A DNA stretch of 64,000 nt from Alphaproteobacteria bacterium (lineage in GTDB: Bacteria > Pseudomonadota > Alphaproteobacteria > Rhizobiales > Devosiaceae). The notes below the pieces were generated by a model, which saw nothing but the letters and a program-made list of their open reading frames with translations, did no database searches and was not told the origin of the DNA. This document shows, one piece after another, positions 2,001-62,113 of the stretch; the first letter of the stretch is position 1, and each line of letters starts with the position of its first letter. The stretch is taken from positions 1-64,000 of the forward strand of contig JAHJQZ010000057.1 of NCBI GenBank assembly GCA_018818925.1. Direction: 5' to 3'. The translations under genes and the position numbers were made by a program.

Positions 2001-2107
2001 CTAGATCATGTCCGTCAAAGCGGATGATCGATGTCCGTTTTGCACATGCGACCACTCGGGCACTTGTGCCATGCGTTTTGATTGCGTCAGAACGTGCCAG
2101 GGCCTGG
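2001..2107. repeat. Dispersed palindromic repeat, family A, degenerate copy
   Basis: This stretch has the order of blocks found in the copies at 29410 and 34342: an imperfect hairpin around CAAAGCGGAT/ATGTCCGTTTTG, then GCGACCACTC, then a GCGTTTTGATT palindrome (here with GTCAGAACG as the second arm). It is diverged but clearly related. The frame of the following ROK regulator is open through it, which would add a spurious N-terminal extension if the first start were chosen. Confidence 0.65.
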
Positions 2108-28965: not shown

Positions 28966-29412
28966 ATGGCCATTCCGATTTCCGAACGCGAGACCCAGGA
29001 AAGAGCCCCCCGCATGTGGATTCCGCCGCTCCTCATCCTGCCGCTGATCGTTTACAACATTCTGGTCTTCTTCTTCTTCGGCAGCATCGAGGGCGGCTGG
29101 GCAACGCCCATTCTCGAGGTGCCGATGGTATCCGGCACCGCCTGGACGCTGTCCCTGTCCGACACGTTCCTCGTCGTCACCCTGTTTTTGTTGTTCGTCG
29201 AGGTGCTCAAATCGACGCGTACCGACGCCGGCTCGATGTTCGAGCACATGGCCTCGACCCTGGTCTTTGTCGCCTTCCTCGTCGAATTCCTCGTGGTGGC
29301 CAAGGCCTCGACCTCGCTGTTCTTCCTGTGCACGGTCATGAGCTTCATCGACGTGGTCGCCGGCTTCTCGGTGTCGATGCGCGCCGCCCGCCGCGATTTC
29401 GGCGCCGGCTAG
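28966..29412 (+). CDS. Four-helix integral membrane protein of unknown function
   Basis: The 148-residue protein has four hydrophobic segments (about residues 20-40, 63-82, 95-113 and 115-134) and short charged loops, with the N terminus probably in the cytoplasm. I do not recognise a family. It lies 164 bp after rpmF. Its last codons and TAG stop (29410-29412) are the left end of a dispersed palindromic repeat, so the C terminus ...RRDFGAG may be repeat-shaped. Confidence 0.75.
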   Translation: MAIPISERETQERAPRMWIPPLLILPLIVYNILVFFFFGSIEGGWATPILEVPMVSGTAWTLSLSDTFLVVTLFLLFVEVLKSTRTDAGSMFEHMASTLVFVAFLVEFLVVAKASTSLFFLCTVMSFIDVVAGFSVSMRAARRDFGAG

Positions 29413-29514
29413 AGCTTTTTCAGGAAAAGTGGCTACCACTTTTCCGGTTCGAACACGCGACCACTCAAAAACTTGGGTTGGCGTTTTGATTCAATCAAAA
29501 CGTGCCATGATTTA
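29410..29514. repeat. Dispersed palindromic repeat, family A, complete copy
   Basis: The element begins TAGAGC, with TAG serving as the stop of the preceding gene. It contains a hairpin GGAAAAGTGG/CCACTTTTCC, the block GCGACCACTCAAA, and a second hairpin GCGTTTTGATT/AATCAAAACG. The copy at 34342-34447 has the same blocks in the same order and is nearly identical over most of its length. Confidence 0.88.
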
Positions 29515-32323: not shown

Positions 32324-33421
32324 ATGACCAAGCGTCCCCAGCCGAAGCCCGGCATTCTGAACATCGCCCCCTATGTTCCCGGCAAGTCCGGCACCCGGCC
32401 GGGCCAGCAGGCGATCAAGCTCAGCTCCAACGAATCCCCGCTCGGCGCCAGCCCGCTGGCCAGTGCCGCCTATGCCGAAGCCGTATCGCGGCTGGCCGAA
32501 TACCCCGAAGGCTCGTCGGCGAAGCTGCGCGAAACCCTCGCCGAAGCGCACGGGCTCGAAGCCGAACGTATCGTCATCGGCGCCGGCTCCGACGAAATCC
32601 TGCACCTGCTGGCCGAGACCTATCTCGGCGACGGCGACGAGGCGGTCCAGTCCGAATACGGCTTCCTCATGTATCCGATCGCGACCATGGGCGCCGGGGC
32701 GGCACCCGTCGTCGCCAGGGACCGCAACTATACCGTCGATGTCGACGCCATGCTCGCCGCGGTCACCGACAGGACGCGCATCGTCTGGCTCGCCAATCCC
32801 AACAATCCGACCGGCACATGGCTCGACGATGCCGAGGTCCGCCGCCTGCATGCCGGCCTGCGGCCCGACATTGTGTTCGTGATCGACAACGCCTATGCCG
32901 AATACGTCACCGCGCCCGGCTTTACGACCGGCGCCGAACTGGTGCGCGAAGCCGACAATGTCGTCATGGTCCGCACCTTCTCCAAGATGGGCCTTGCCGC
33001 CCTGCGTGTCGGCTGGCTCTACGGGCCGGATCACATCGTCGACGCAATCAACCGCATCCGCGGACCCTTCAACGTCTCGGTGCCAGCCCAGGAAGCCGCC
33101 GCTGCCGCGACGCGGGACAGCGAATTCACCGCCAGTCTTGCGGCCCACAATGCCCGCTGGCGCGACTATTTGACCGCCGAACTGCGCTCCAACCACGTCA
33201 CGGTGCCCGACAGCCAGGGCAATTTTATTCTCGCCATTTTCGACGAGGCCGCCGGCCCCTCGGCCGCCGATGTTTTTGCCGCTCTCGCCGATGCAGGCCT
33301 GATCACCCGCGAAATGGGGGGCTACGGCCTTGCCAATGCCGTGCGCATCTCCATCGGCAGCGAGGACGCCATGCGCCGCACCGTGGCGGTGATCAAAAGG
33401 CTGCAGGGGGAAGGGAACTGA
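32324..33421 (+). CDS. hisC: Histidinol-phosphate aminotransferase
   Basis: The 365-residue PLP enzyme of aminotransferase class II transfers an amino group to imidazole-acetol phosphate in histidine synthesis, and in this genomic setting probably also acts on phenylpyruvate-type substrates. Visible motifs are KLSSNESPLGASP, VWLANPNNPTGT, and the PLP lysine in TFSKMGLAALRVGW. The stop overlaps the start of the next gene (TGATG), and the pair hisC-prephenate dehydrogenase points to a link with tyrosine synthesis. Confidence 0.94.
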   Translation: MTKRPQPKPGILNIAPYVPGKSGTRPGQQAIKLSSNESPLGASPLASAAYAEAVSRLAEYPEGSSAKLRETLAEAHGLEAERIVIGAGSDEILHLLAETYLGDGDEAVQSEYGFLMYPIATMGAGAAPVVARDRNYTVDVDAMLAAVTDRTRIVWLANPNNPTGTWLDDAEVRRLHAGLRPDIVFVIDNAYAEYVTAPGFTTGAELVREADNVVMVRTFSKMGLAALRVGWLYGPDHIVDAINRIRGPFNVSVPAQEAAAAATRDSEFTASLAAHNARWRDYLTAELRSNHVTVPDSQGNFILAIFDEAAGPSAADVFAALADAGLITREMGGYGLANAVRISIGSEDAMRRTVAVIKRLQGEGN

Positions 33422-34344
33422 TGTTTGCCCGTCTCGCCCTGATCGGCATCGGGCTGATCGGCTCGTCCATCGTTCACGCCGCCCGCCGCGCCGGCATCGT
33501 CGATCATTTCGCCATCTCGACCCGCCGCGCCGAAACGCTTGCCGAGGCCGAGGCCTTGGGACTTGGCGACAGCTACCACCTCGACGCCGCCGCGGCGGTC
33601 GAAAACGCCGATCTCGTCATCATCTGCGCGCCCGTTCTCGCCTACCAGGCGATCATCGAACGGATCGCCCCGGCGCTGATGCCCGGCGCCATCCTGTCCG
33701 ACGCCGGTTCGGTCAAGGCCCATGTCGTCGAGGTCATCAGGCCGCACCTGCCCGAAGGCGTGCATTTCGTCCCCGGCCATCCCATTGCCGGCACCGAGCA
33801 TTCCGGCCCGTCGGCCGGTTTCGCCACCCTGTTCGACAGGCGCTGGTGCATCCTGACCCCGGAACCGAACGCCGATCCGGCGGCCGTCAAAAAGCTTTCC
33901 GCCTTCTGGCGGGCGCTCGGCTCGCATGTCGAGATCATGGAGCCCGATCATCACGACCTGGTGCTGGCCATCACGAGCCATGTTCCGCACCTCATTGCCT
34001 ATAATATCGTCGGCACCGTTGCCGATCTCGAACACGACACCAAATCCGAGGTCATCAAGTTCTCGGCTTCCGGCTTCCGCGACTTCACCCGCATCGCCGC
34101 CTCCGACCCGGTCATGTGGCGCGACGTGTTCTTGACCAACCGCGACGCCGTGCTCGAAATGCTCGGGCGCTTCACCGAGGATCTGAGCGTGCTGCAGCGG
34201 GCAGTACGCTCCGGCGACGGCAAAAAGCTCGAGGAAATGTTCACCCGCACCCGCACCATCCGCCGCTCGATCATCGACGCCGGCCAGGAAACCGCCGCCG
34301 CCGATTTCGGCCGCCCGCATGGCAAACCCGACGGCGCCGGCTAG
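33421..34344 (+). CDS. tyrC: Prephenate/cyclohexadienyl dehydrogenase
   Basis: The 307-residue NAD-binding protein has the dinucleotide motif GIGLIGSS at the N terminus, HPIAGTEHSGP and HDLVLAITSHVPHLIAY, as in TyrA-type dehydrogenases without a chorismate mutase domain. It converts prephenate or arogenate on the way to tyrosine. The start overlaps hisC. Its last residues and TAG stop (34342-34344) are provided by the left end of a palindromic repeat. Confidence 0.94.
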   Translation: MFARLALIGIGLIGSSIVHAARRAGIVDHFAISTRRAETLAEAEALGLGDSYHLDAAAAVENADLVIICAPVLAYQAIIERIAPALMPGAILSDAGSVKAHVVEVIRPHLPEGVHFVPGHPIAGTEHSGPSAGFATLFDRRWCILTPEPNADPAAVKKLSAFWRALGSHVEIMEPDHHDLVLAITSHVPHLIAYNIVGTVADLEHDTKSEVIKFSASGFRDFTRIAASDPVMWRDVFLTNRDAVLEMLGRFTEDLSVLQRAVRSGDGKKLEEMFTRTRTIRRSIIDAGQETAAADFGRPHGKPDGAG

Positions 34345-34447
34345 AGCCTGTTCAGGAAAAGTGGACACCACTTTTCCGGTTCGAACTGGCGACCACTCAA
34401 AGACCTAGGTCATGCGTTTTGATTCGATCAAAACGTAACATGACCTA
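34342..34447. repeat. Dispersed palindromic repeat, family A, complete copy between convergent genes
   Basis: Blocks are the same as at 29410: TAGAGC, GGAAAAGTGG/CCACTTTTCC, GCGACCACTCAAA and a GCGTTTTGATT/GATCAAAACG palindrome. The left TAG is the stop of the prephenate dehydrogenase gene. At the right end CTA (34445-34447), read on the other strand, is the TAG stop of the DUF2125 gene. The element thus fills the whole space between two convergent genes. Confidence 0.9.
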
Positions 34448-35392
34448 AAACAGCGGCGGCAATTCGATCAGCGGCACGATGCCGGCGCGCAGGACCGAAT
34501 GCGAGAACACGAGCGTCTGCCGCGCCGTGCCGGTTTCGTCCTCCGGGCCAAGCAGTGCCCCGGCCAGGGGCGCGGCGAGGAAATCGCGCAGCAGGGGACC
34601 GACGCCGCGCGAGGTGAGAACGAGTTTGCCGTTGACGAGCCCGCCCCCGTCCGGCGCCAGCGTGCCGCTGAGTCCGGCCGAAAGCTTCCCGGTTGCCAGC
34701 GCAGCCTCTTCGATCTCGAGGCTGCCGCCGTCGACCGCCCAGGCCTGCAGACTGCCCGGCCCGGTCCATTGCCTTATATCGGCCGGCCATTCGTTGACCA
34801 GCGCCGAGGCCTTGACCTCGACCGGATCGTCGAACAGGCCGAGTTCGGCGTTTTCGATTCTGGCGAAGACCCTCAAATTCCTTTTGTCCATGCCCAATGC
34901 TCCCGCGGCGCCGAGCGCGTGCAGTTCCAGATGGCGCGCCCGCGCCATCTCGGTCACGTCGAGCACACTATCCGACAGCACCAGCCCGTCCGCCACCAGC
35001 GACGCCCGCTCGAGCGCCGTCCAGTCGAGCCGGACGCTGGCCTTAAGGCTCTCCCAGTCGAGCCGGTAGGACGCGCCGGAAAAGGCATCGGAGAGGACCG
35101 CCGGCCCCTTGGCGAAGATTTCGGTGAAGGTCGGGTTGTAGACCAGCACCGAGGCGCGCAGTTCGGCAATGTCCATCGTCACGTCGCCGCCACCGAGCCG
35201 CGTCCCGGTGCAGGTGATGTCGAAGCGGAACGGAAGGCCGGCGATGGCGAGTTCGGCGCAGCCAATCGCCGGTGCCCCGAAGGCCTGGCGCCCGATCTGG
35301 TCGCGAATCCACCACGCGCCGAAAAACCAGCCGCCGCACCACAGGGCGACGACGGTGAAAACCACGGCGAGCAGCACGGCGAATCTGTTCAT
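34445..35392 (-). CDS. DUF2125 family protein
   Basis: The 315-residue protein has an N-terminal membrane anchor or uncleaved signal (about residues 5-28) and a long beta-rich periplasmic region (ELAIAGLPFRFDITCTGTRL), matching DUF2125. Function is unknown; the fold resembles lipid-transport-like repetitive beta proteins only in general terms. The TAG stop comes from the palindromic repeat. It is divergent from the cyclotransferase gene. Confidence 0.85.
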   Translation of the reverse strand: MNRFAVLLAVVFTVVALWCGGWFFGAWWIRDQIGRQAFGAPAIGCAELAIAGLPFRFDITCTGTRLGGGDVTMDIAELRASVLVYNPTFTEIFAKGPAVLSDAFSGASYRLDWESLKASVRLDWTALERASLVADGLVLSDSVLDVTEMARARHLELHALGAAGALGMDKRNLRVFARIENAELGLFDDPVEVKASALVNEWPADIRQWTGPGSLQAWAVDGGSLEIEEAALATGKLSAGLSGTLAPDGGGLVNGKLVLTSRGVGPLLRDFLAAPLAGALLGPEDETGTARQTLVFSHSVLRAGIVPLIELPPLF

Positions 35393-36660: not shown

Positions 36661-36702
36661 GAGAGCATGTGTTTTGAGTCCATCAAAACGTGACATGACC
36701 TA
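36661..36702. repeat. Dispersed palindromic repeat, family A, half copy at the end of plsC
   Basis: Only the GTTTTGAGTCCATCAAAAC palindrome and the flanking TGACATGACCTA are present. Read on the minus strand it begins TAGGTCATG, as does the right end of the copy at 34447, and its TAG (36702-36700) is the stop codon of plsC. The GGAAAAGTGG hairpin is missing. Confidence 0.75.
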
Positions 36703-37503
36703 GGCGTCGGCCTGTTCCCGCAACAGGCGCAGCCGGTCCTGCATGGCGTCGCTGAGCGGTCGGGCAATGCCCTCTTTCGCCGCCATGACGGCCAGCCGGT
36801 CGGATTCCGCTTCGAGAACCGCCACCAGCCGGCGCTGCATCTCCTCGGCTCCGAGGCCCGGCGGAATCGGCTCGAGGAAACGCGCCCGCGCCGTGCCCGG
36901 CCACAGAACCAGCGCGCGCCGTCCCCAGAACAGGCCGGAATTGAGCGCCACCGGCACCACGGGCACATTGAGCGCCTCGTAAAGCCGGGACACGCCGACC
37001 TTGTAGTGCGGCGGGCTGAGCGGCGGTCGCCGCGTGCCCTCGGGAAAGATGATGATCCGGCAGCCGCGCCCGGTGGCGGCGCGCGCCGCCTCGATCATTT
37101 GCGGAACGGCCTTGCCACCGAGACTCCTGTCGATTCGAATGGTATCGAGCGCCTGCGCCGCCCAGCCGAAGAACGGAATGTCCATCAATTCGCGCTTGGC
37201 GATGAAGGCCGGCCGCCCGCTATGCGGCAACAGAGCGTAGATATCCCAGTCCGACTGATGCTTGGCAGCGATGATGCAGCCGCCCGCGGGCAGGTTTTCC
37301 TGTCCCGTGACCTCGGATCTGATGCCGACGATCCAGCGGAGCATGAAAGTGTTGGCGCGGGCCCAGTACATGGCCAGCGTCAGCCCGAGATCGAACGGCC
37401 GCCGGATCGTGATGGCCAGCAGCCCCACGAAGACGGCCAGAACCACGGTCTGGACATAGAACAGCGCGAAAAACACCAGGGACCGGACGGCTTGGATGAC
37501 CAT
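36700..37503 (-). CDS. plsC: 1-acyl-sn-glycerol-3-phosphate acyltransferase
   Basis: The 267-residue membrane-associated enzyme makes phosphatidic acid from lysophosphatidic acid. It has the HX4D motif HQSDWD (residues 82-87), the IIIFPEGTRR motif, and an N-terminal hydrophobic helix. GGGAG upstream favours ATG 37503 over GTG 37512. It follows ftsX by 32 bp on the same strand. The stop codon lies in a repeat element. Confidence 0.95.
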   Translation of the reverse strand: MVIQAVRSLVFFALFYVQTVVLAVFVGLLAITIRRPFDLGLTLAMYWARANTFMLRWIVGIRSEVTGQENLPAGGCIIAAKHQSDWDIYALLPHSGRPAFIAKRELMDIPFFGWAAQALDTIRIDRSLGGKAVPQMIEAARAATGRGCRIIIFPEGTRRPPLSPPHYKVGVSRLYEALNVPVVPVALNSGLFWGRRALVLWPGTARARFLEPIPPGLGAEEMQRRLVAVLEAESDRLAVMAAKEGIARPLSDAMQDRLRLLREQADA

Positions 37504-47752: not shown

Positions 47753-47810
47753 TCCCTCCCCTTGATGGGGAGGGTGGCCCGGCGCAGCCGGGTCGGGTGG
47801 GGTGGGGCGA
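47753..47810. repeat. Palindromic repeat, family C, single copy
   Basis: Two small hairpins, CCCTCCCC/GGGGAGGG and GCCCGGC/GCCGGGT, are followed by GGGTGGGGTGG. The same blocks occur at 61759-61814 and, inverted, at 61952-62009. It lies between convergent epimerase and gluQ genes. Confidence 0.85.
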
Positions 47811-50139: not shown

Positions 50140-50697
50140 GTGACGGTCCATGTCCCACCGGAATCCTGTCCGGCTCTGGTGCTGAACGCGGACTTTCGTC
50201 CCCTCAGCTATTATCCGTTGTCGCTCTGGTCCTGGCAGGATGCCATCAAGGCGGTGTTCCTGGATCGGGTGAACATCGTTTCCGAATACGAGACGCGGGT
50301 CCGAAGTCCGAGCTTCGAAATGAAGCTTCCCTCCGTCGTTTCGCTTCGCGAATATGTCCAGCCCGCCCGCTACCCCGCCTTCACCCGCTTCAACGTCTTC
50401 CTGCGCGACCGCTTCCAGTGCCAGTATTGCGGCGCGCACGACGATCTGACCTTTGATCACGTCCTGCCGCGCTCGCGCGGCGGCCGCACCACCTGGGAAA
50501 ACGTCGTCGCCGCCTGCGCCCCGTGCAATCTGCGCAAGGGCAACCGCATGCCGCGCGACATCGGCATGATCCCGAGGCAGAGCCCATACCGCCCTTCCGT
50601 CCACGACCTGCACAATAACGGGCGGGCCTTCCCGCCCAATTATCTGCACGAGAGCTGGATGGACTACCTCTACTGGGATACCGAACTCGAGCCATAG
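50140..50697 (+). CDS. HNH endonuclease
   Basis: The 185-residue protein has a zinc-binding HNH core: FQCQYCG, LTFDHVLPRSRGGRTTWENVVAACAPCN. It is a stand-alone family widespread in alphaproteobacteria, not tied to a restriction or mobile system here. GTG 50140 has AAGGAGA upstream. Its TAG stop is part of a short repeat (TAGAGCATCGT...). Confidence 0.88.
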   Translation: MTVHVPPESCPALVLNADFRPLSYYPLSLWSWQDAIKAVFLDRVNIVSEYETRVRSPSFEMKLPSVVSLREYVQPARYPAFTRFNVFLRDRFQCQYCGAHDDLTFDHVLPRSRGGRTTWENVVAACAPCNLRKGNRMPRDIGMIPRQSPYRPSVHDLHNNGRAFPPNYLHESWMDYLYWDTELEP

Positions 50698-50743
50698 AGC
50701 ATCGTGCGCCAGGCGGGCGCCGGTTCTACGCACAAAACGATGC
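50695..50743. repeat. Short palindromic repeat beginning TAGAGCATCGT
   Basis: The outer arms GCATCGT (50699-50705) and ACGATGC (50737-50743) enclose a GC-rich centre. The leading TAG is the stop of the HNH gene. TAGAGCATCG-type elements are a common dispersed repeat class in Rhizobiales; this looks like a member. Confidence 0.75.
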
Positions 50744-50813
50744 GGCCATAAACAGATCGTGCGGCGTGGCGATTCAATCTGAACGCATGCCGCTCCCGGT
50801 CACGGTCTGGCCG

Positions 50814-61727: not shown

Positions 61728-62113
61728 TTCCATTTCTCCAACGGACCATCCGGCATCCCTTCTCCCTCCCCTTGACGGGGAGGTAGCCCGGCAAAGCCGG
61801 GCCGGGTGGGGTGGAGCCACAAGCGCCGGCGTCCGAACCCTCCACCCTCGATCCCTTCCCCTTGCGGACAGGGTTGGCGAACAGGACTTGGCCCCTTCGC
61901 CAAATCCGTCGTGAGCCTGGGTGGAGGCTTGCAACGTCAGCATGTTACGCCCCACCCCACCCGACCTGCCTTCGGCAGGCCACCCTCCCCGTCAAGGGGA
62001 GGGAGAAGACGGGCCCCCGGCACAAACCGCCTGCCATTCGGGCATGGCCCTCATGGCCTTCTTCCCTCCAATCGTGCCGGTGGCACGATTGGCCCATTCG
62101 GGACGGGTCGAAG
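61728..62113. other. Intergenic region between imuB and dnaE2
   Basis: This 386-bp stretch contains no gene. Most of it is the inverted-repeat element at 61759-62009. I see no GAAC-N7-GAAC (the alphaproteobacterial LexA box) in it, so dnaE2 probably depends on the promoter upstream of imuA/imuB outside the window. Confidence 0.5.
61759..62009. repeat. 251-bp inverted-repeat element, family C, between imuB and dnaE2
   Basis: The ends are a perfect 25-bp inverted repeat (61759-61783 and 61985-62009, containing CCCTCCCCTTGACGGGGAGG). A second pair, CGGGTGGGGTGG (61803-61814) and its complement (61952-61963), lies inside. Each half matches the single copy at 47753. It is MITE-like in form, but no target duplication was identified. 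Confidence 0.88.

Follow-up and report, generated by a model that had tools for sequence, protein, structure and literature searches.

Short palindromic repeats of a Devosiaceae genome often lie at stop codons, which their insertion very probably rebuilds as TAG

In Caulobacter, Brucella and other alphaproteobacteria, the CcrM-associated intergenic repeats (CIR) are found between and not within genes, are about 110 bp long and are built of two hairpin arms and a linker, with TA at their termini and GANTC at the loop of one arm; the review that describes them marks their target duplication as unknown and their mobility as unclear (PMC2229807). Bru-RS1 and Bru-RS2 of Brucella are palindromic intergenic repeats of 103-105 bp and hot spots for an insertion sequence (IS) that duplicates TA in YTAR (PMC2266754, PMC3163539 and PMC2267715); they are preferred by IS711, whose target and duplication are of this kind (PMC2266754 and PMC3163539). 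Another group, the Rhizobium-specific intergenic mosaic elements (RIME), is named in PMC2573895. ERIC/RU-1, Correia/NEMIS and RUP are non-autonomous MITEs of about 100-170 bp with TA ends and a TA duplication (PMC2229807, PMC2759123), and RU-1 and the 107-bp form of Correia fuse with reading frames, so that the normal stop may be lost and the protein lengthened (PMC2759123, PMC2229807).

The repeats analyzed here belong to two families, A and B, of a 3.18-Mb metagenome-assembled genome, and were noticed in a window of 64,000 nucleotides, the whole stretch of DNA under analysis. They resemble CIR in size, in having two hairpin arms with a linker, in their TA termini and in their intergenic placement, a likeness drawn from anatomy alone and not from the sequences of CIR1-4. 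GANTC, conserved at a loop in CIR, stands at one fixed loop position in about half of the family-A copies (24/49) and in few family-B copies (6/35). TA duplication, YTAR preference and stop-codon placement can be shown for the repeats analyzed here. With Bru-RS they share the size and the presence of YTAR-targeting ISs at the terminal TA (here at loci L446, L450, L453 and L457), by description rather than by sequence, whereas stop-codon placement goes unreported in the available portions of the Bru-RS accounts (PMC2266754, PMC3163539, PMC2267715). RIME are likewise rhizobial intergenic repeats with palindromes, and here too the likeness is one of description, not of sequence or insertion rule. 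As for ERIC/RU-1 and Correia, the outcome seems to be the opposite one, since the repeats of the window rebuild the stop and leave the protein unchanged. A search of the open-licence literature brought up no previous account of repeats that come to lie precisely at stops through a stop-regenerating insertion. The elements of the window and the genes that adjoin them are as follows.

2001..2105 (+): divergent family-A copy, away from any stop codon; 51 bits.
28966..29412 (+): gene of 148 aa, C-terminus ...RRDFGAG*, codons GGC GCC GGC TAG; the stop TAG at 29410-29412 is the left TAG of the next element.
29410..29514 (+): family-A element; left target TA 29410-29411, right target TA 29513-29514, core 29412-29512, inner right base mutated from C to T; covariance model R1, 98 bits.
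33421..34344 (+): prephenate dehydrogenase gene (tyrC-type); the stop TAG at 34342-34344 consists of the target TA and the G of the next element.
34342..34447 (+): family-A element; left TA 34342-34343, right TA 34446-34447; 124 bits.
34445..35392 (-): DUF2125 gene, C-terminus ...PPLF*; its stop is CTA 34445-34447 on the + strand, at the right end of the 34342 copy.
36661..36702 (+): shortened family-A copy with a single hairpin; right TA 36701-36702, left terminus degenerate (GAGAGC); 24 bits.
36700..37503 (-): acyltransferase gene; stop CTA 36700-36702, coinciding with the right end of the shortened copy.
50179..50697 (+): HNH endonuclease gene, C-terminus ...DTELEP*; its stop, TAG 50695-50697, coincides with the left end of the next element.
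50695..50797 (+): family-B element, 99 bits; left TA 50695-50696, core approximately 50697-50795, TA of the right terminus mutated to CC.

A sequence-only reading of this DNA had reported that five gene ends in the window coincide with a terminal TAG of the repeats, and all five are present as it described them; the copy at 34342..34447 lies between convergent genes and has a stop codon at each of its ends. The same reading had taken the Gly-Ala-Gly (GAG) ending common to two of the genes as part of the pattern, but this is a coincidence, found in 2 of 68 element-ended genes. The window also contains a weak partial reverse match at 34407-34505.

Families A and B are both ~105 bp long, with two hairpins and a linker, and their models (R1 and R2) have 106 positions, two hairpins and 30-31 pairs. 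The element proper measures ~101-104 bp, starts with 5'-GAGC... and ends with GCTC-3' in family B and GACC-3' in family A. The terminal inverted repeats are CTAGAGC.../...GCTCTAG in family B and imperfect in family A, where GAGCATG faces GGTCATG (right end, reverse complement). Covariance models of the two families together found about 125 distinct copies in the genome. The repeats are short, non-coding and multicopy, they have terminal inverted repeats, and filled and empty sites with a TA duplication can be compared; we regard it as very probable, for the explanation as a whole, TA duplication and stop regeneration included, that they are non-autonomous mobile elements, MITE-like and of the CIR type. 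Identity with a known RNA family was considered and rejected, as Rfam gave no match even at E<=1.

For the genome-wide placement, stretches surrounding all copies, 0.83 Mb in total, were annotated with a simple home-made gene caller based on codon usage, which yielded 848 genes with 399 TGA, 325 TAG and 68 TAA stops, and the 83 copies scoring at least 60 bits were analyzed. One or both ends lie exactly at a gene stop in 52 of these 83 copies (63%), the stop coinciding with the left terminal TAG in 36, with the right one in 21 and with both in 5. Genes running into the left end stop at offset 0 in 36 cases, while nine are scattered over -58..-1 and none ends inside the element; at the right end, 21 stop at offset 0, 15 are scattered upstream and 3 end inside. 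Gene ends located 1-60 nt upstream of an element thus number 24 (9 left, 15 right) against 57 at exactly 0, and 57 of the 60 genes that end at or inside an element do so exactly at the terminus, where the reading frame would lead one to expect 1/3 (p = 7e-24). If the elements had landed randomly on non-coding TA sites, 13% would be at stops (p = 1.5e-25 for 52/83); when the non-coding TA sites are weighted by the outer-base preference of the copies away from stops, the expectation rises to 29% (p = 2.8e-10), and even the raw fraction of non-coding CTAG found at stops (42%) is exceeded (p = 1e-4). That the elements insert or persist preferentially at stops had been suggested from the window, with a comparison of genome-wide copies and random placement as the check; this check, 63% at stops against 13% or 29% expected, bears the suggestion out. 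The ends serving as stops read TAG in 54 cases and TGA in 3, whereas TAG is kept at only 33 of 109 ends elsewhere, so that it appears to be maintained where it is needed. Apart from the elements, TAG is unusually frequent as a stop in this genome (325 of 792 closed genes in the 0.83-Mb sample), far beyond what the elements contribute.

Family B also occurs in Sphingobium plasmids, close relatives of which are without individual copies, and the insertion rule can be read from such pairs. For insertion at a stop codon, the clean empty site comes from Sphingobium family B and not from the window's own genome: plasmid pTomTYG46a reads GGTCG[CTAG]AGC...GCT[CTAG]GCC, and the empty allele in MM15 reads GGTCG[CTAG]GCC, in which the CTAG ends a gene with a TAG stop. 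Five other plasmids, also empty at this locus, have CTGA instead, which makes the codon in question a TGA stop. At an intergenic locus the empty CTAA became CTAG...CTAA when filled, and at a second one TTAG...CTAA corresponds to an empty TTAG, which differs by a single base from the TTAA predicted; these two pairs show that only the TA is duplicated and that the left G and the right C are borne by the element. The junction of a further pair, L323/MM7A, is messy in the alignment, and for the copy in L329 no orthologous locus was found among the relatives searched for an empty site. In the window's own genome, wherever the TA is intact, the inner base is G at 46/46 left ends and C at 41/43 right ends, while the outer bases differ between copies, C being favoured on the left and G on the right. 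The sequence-only reading had spoken of a TAG carried by the repeat, which holds for one of the three bases: the empty sites and the base signature assign the TA to the duplicated target and the following G to the element. Since only this G is element-borne, TAA stops serve as well as TAG stops. Equality of the left and right tetramers was also tried as a test of the duplication and discarded (16 observed, 13.9 expected); it is uninformative, the inner bases being part of the element. Stops containing TA are occupied in 30% of cases when preceded by C, 16% by T, 10% by A and 3% by G, absolute values that are inflated because the stretches were chosen around copies. The base at -2 differs as well, being G-rich, and a target described as TA or YTAR is thus described in part. 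The recognized site is YTAR/CTAG rather than the stop codon as such, and, within the same explanation taken as a whole, there is every likelihood that the element inserts into TA, prefers (G)CTAG/YTAR and duplicates the TA only.

Under this rule, each copy of the duplicated TA would form TAG together with the element's terminal G, one on either side, and when the TA lies within a TAA or TAG stop, the stop would be rebuilt as TAG at the same position with the protein unchanged. Convergent genes that overlap at their stops (CTAG, CTAA) would each retain a stop, one per element end. The copy at 34342 illustrates such a separation: in L246 and L250, tyrC and the DUF2125 gene have a single CTAG common to both stops, and L246 reads GACGACGC-CTAG-AACAGCGG where the window reads CTAG-element-CTAA-AACAGCGG. 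For the tyrC-type gene at 33421..34344, TAA is predicted as the ancestral stop. As to why copies gather at stops, CTAG is rare inside genes here and common at stops, and insertions into coding interiors and promoters would be purged, leaving the survivors concentrated at stops; afterwards, selection would keep TAG at the ends used as stops, where only TAG or TGA is seen, and the other ends would decay. The tetramer is depleted (417 occurrences, where a Markov model predicts 900), and its occurrences outside the elements in the sampled stretches are 104 at stops, 144 in spacers and 69 inside genes. Compared with this free CTAG, elements are scarce in divergent (5'-5', promoter) spacers, 4 against about 18 expected.

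Three other readings of these data have to be weighed. The duplication might be the 4-bp CTAG, as in an IS5 subgroup, so that the full TAG would lie within the target. CTAG is found on both sides in 13 of the 83 copies and the stop-codon site of Sphingobium fits such a duplication equally well, but the intergenic sites filled as TTAG...CTAA and CTAG...CTAA contradict it, their empty alleles being TTAG and CTAA, as does the invariance of the inner G and C beside variable outer bases, and we give this reading hardly any probability. It is also very improbable that the element brings its own stop, lands in the 3' part of genes and truncates or reshapes their C termini, the in-frame TAG cases being the survivors. 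Such an origin is conceivable insofar as the TA+G rule makes TAG at any in-frame TAN codon, Tyr included, and insertions in the other frames would lengthen the protein by at least 20 residues, so that selection could remove them. The C termini themselves, however, look unaltered: in a comparison with 0.97 Mb of the element-free relative G002, 10 of 13 element-ended genes have a C-terminal length within 3 residues of that of the orthologue, against 59% of 145 controls. One gene with the same C-terminal length as its G002 orthologue is 28966..29412, whose 148-aa product has no Pfam match. The ...ELEP* terminus of the HNH protein is conserved throughout the order in the absence of the element, TAG or TAA following it in most element-free orthologues, and the PLF* of the DUF2125 protein is conserved in relatives. 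Moreover, the opposite outer base of the copies at stops is a purine in the sense of the stop in 26 of 27 cases, as required if the target was TAA or TAG, and one empty allele in Sphingobium has a stop at the insertion codon. Four of these observations, namely the empty CTAG allele, the outer base, the C-terminal lengths in G002 and the ...ELEP* terminus, support the view that the stop preceded the element, and the proposal from the window that the elements shape C termini does not agree with the unchanged lengths or with the conserved end of the HNH protein.

The third reading, in which positive selection keeps the elements at 3' ends for their usefulness, as bidirectional 3'-UTR hairpins, terminators or CcrM methylation sites, is one that we consider unlikely. 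Placement at stops is about two-fold over the target-weighted expectation, convergent spacers hold 27 elements where free CTAG would predict about 11, two stable hairpins are conserved, and GANTC stands at a fixed loop position in the 24 of 49 family-A copies mentioned above. On the other hand, a terminator or a 3'-UTR hairpin needs no exact coincidence with the stop codon, and yet the gene ends within 1-60 nt upstream are only 24 against the 57 at exactly 0; in addition, copies are polymorphic between related plasmids, and ends and loops decay. The excess beyond target preference (63% against 29%) needs either selection or an unrecognized insertion preference, and we infer that purifying selection, sparing the insertions that rebuild a stop, accounts for it.

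The mobilizing enzyme is presumably a transposase of the IS5 family, IS427/IS711-like. IS711 and related IS5-family ISs have the same target and duplication, TA in YTAR, and ISs of similar size (835-855 bp, with DUF4096) are present in related genomes, but those found have terminal repeats (GGTTACATACCC, GGGTCAGGAC) unlike the GAGC... of the repeats. A search for pairs of terminal inverted repeats around transposase ORFs in the stretches examined revealed no autonomous element whose ends match GAGC; it yielded only chance pairs within genes and pairs made of two separate elements. At the four loci named above, the insertion point of IS5-type ISs carrying DUF4096 is precisely the terminal TA of an element, with a size of 841 bp in L450 and L453 and about 835 bp in L457, the right end being unseen in L446. 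These ISs begin with G and would likewise recreate TAG. Two more ISs, L456:942-1786 (845 bp) and L437:1402-2256 (855 bp), are flanked by CTAG, a target of the same type, and have the ends GGGTC.../...GACCC; they lie away from the repeats.

We think it probable that, for this CIR/Bru-RS-type class, widespread in alphaproteobacteria, stops are a safe landing site at which the stop is rebuilt on both sides, TAA is turned into TAG and overlapping convergent stops are separated, by a rule not previously described. It would offer a mechanical reason for the harmless spread of a high-copy repeat in dense, GC-rich genomes, as the end sequence of the repeat recreates the codon that it interrupts, and it supplies evidence of target duplication and mobility, which the 2007 review listed as unknown for CIR. 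YTAR-targeting ISs such as IS711 of Brucella may collect at Bru-RS because every repeat offers a rare target twice, once at either end. For annotators and comparative studies there is a warning, in that TAG stops and the spacers between convergent genes can be transposon-made.

Beyond the window's genome, 11 of 33 matches in relatives, both Devosiaceae and other families, coincide exactly with a stop as judged by a gene caller trained on another genome, and in Sphingobium the copies in L303, L304 (at both ends) and L329 are also at stops. Elements sometimes adjoin each other. In the window's genome, tandem pairs at C86:4017-4224 and C64:7621-7790 (G000) have a common CTAG/CTGG junction, which suggests insertion at the end of an existing element, and one Sphingobium spacer (L305:1500-1900) holds a stack of three different small palindromic elements with the ends GAGCAT/ATGCTC, as if elements inserted at each other's terminal CTAG. 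A second type of interspersed repeat, CTCCCTCCCCTTGA-GGGGAGGGTGGCC..., is present in the window at 47753-47809, 61948-62004 and 61759-61792, including inverted copies, and a similar repeat, CCCTCCCC, lies downstream of tyrC in some Devosia relatives.
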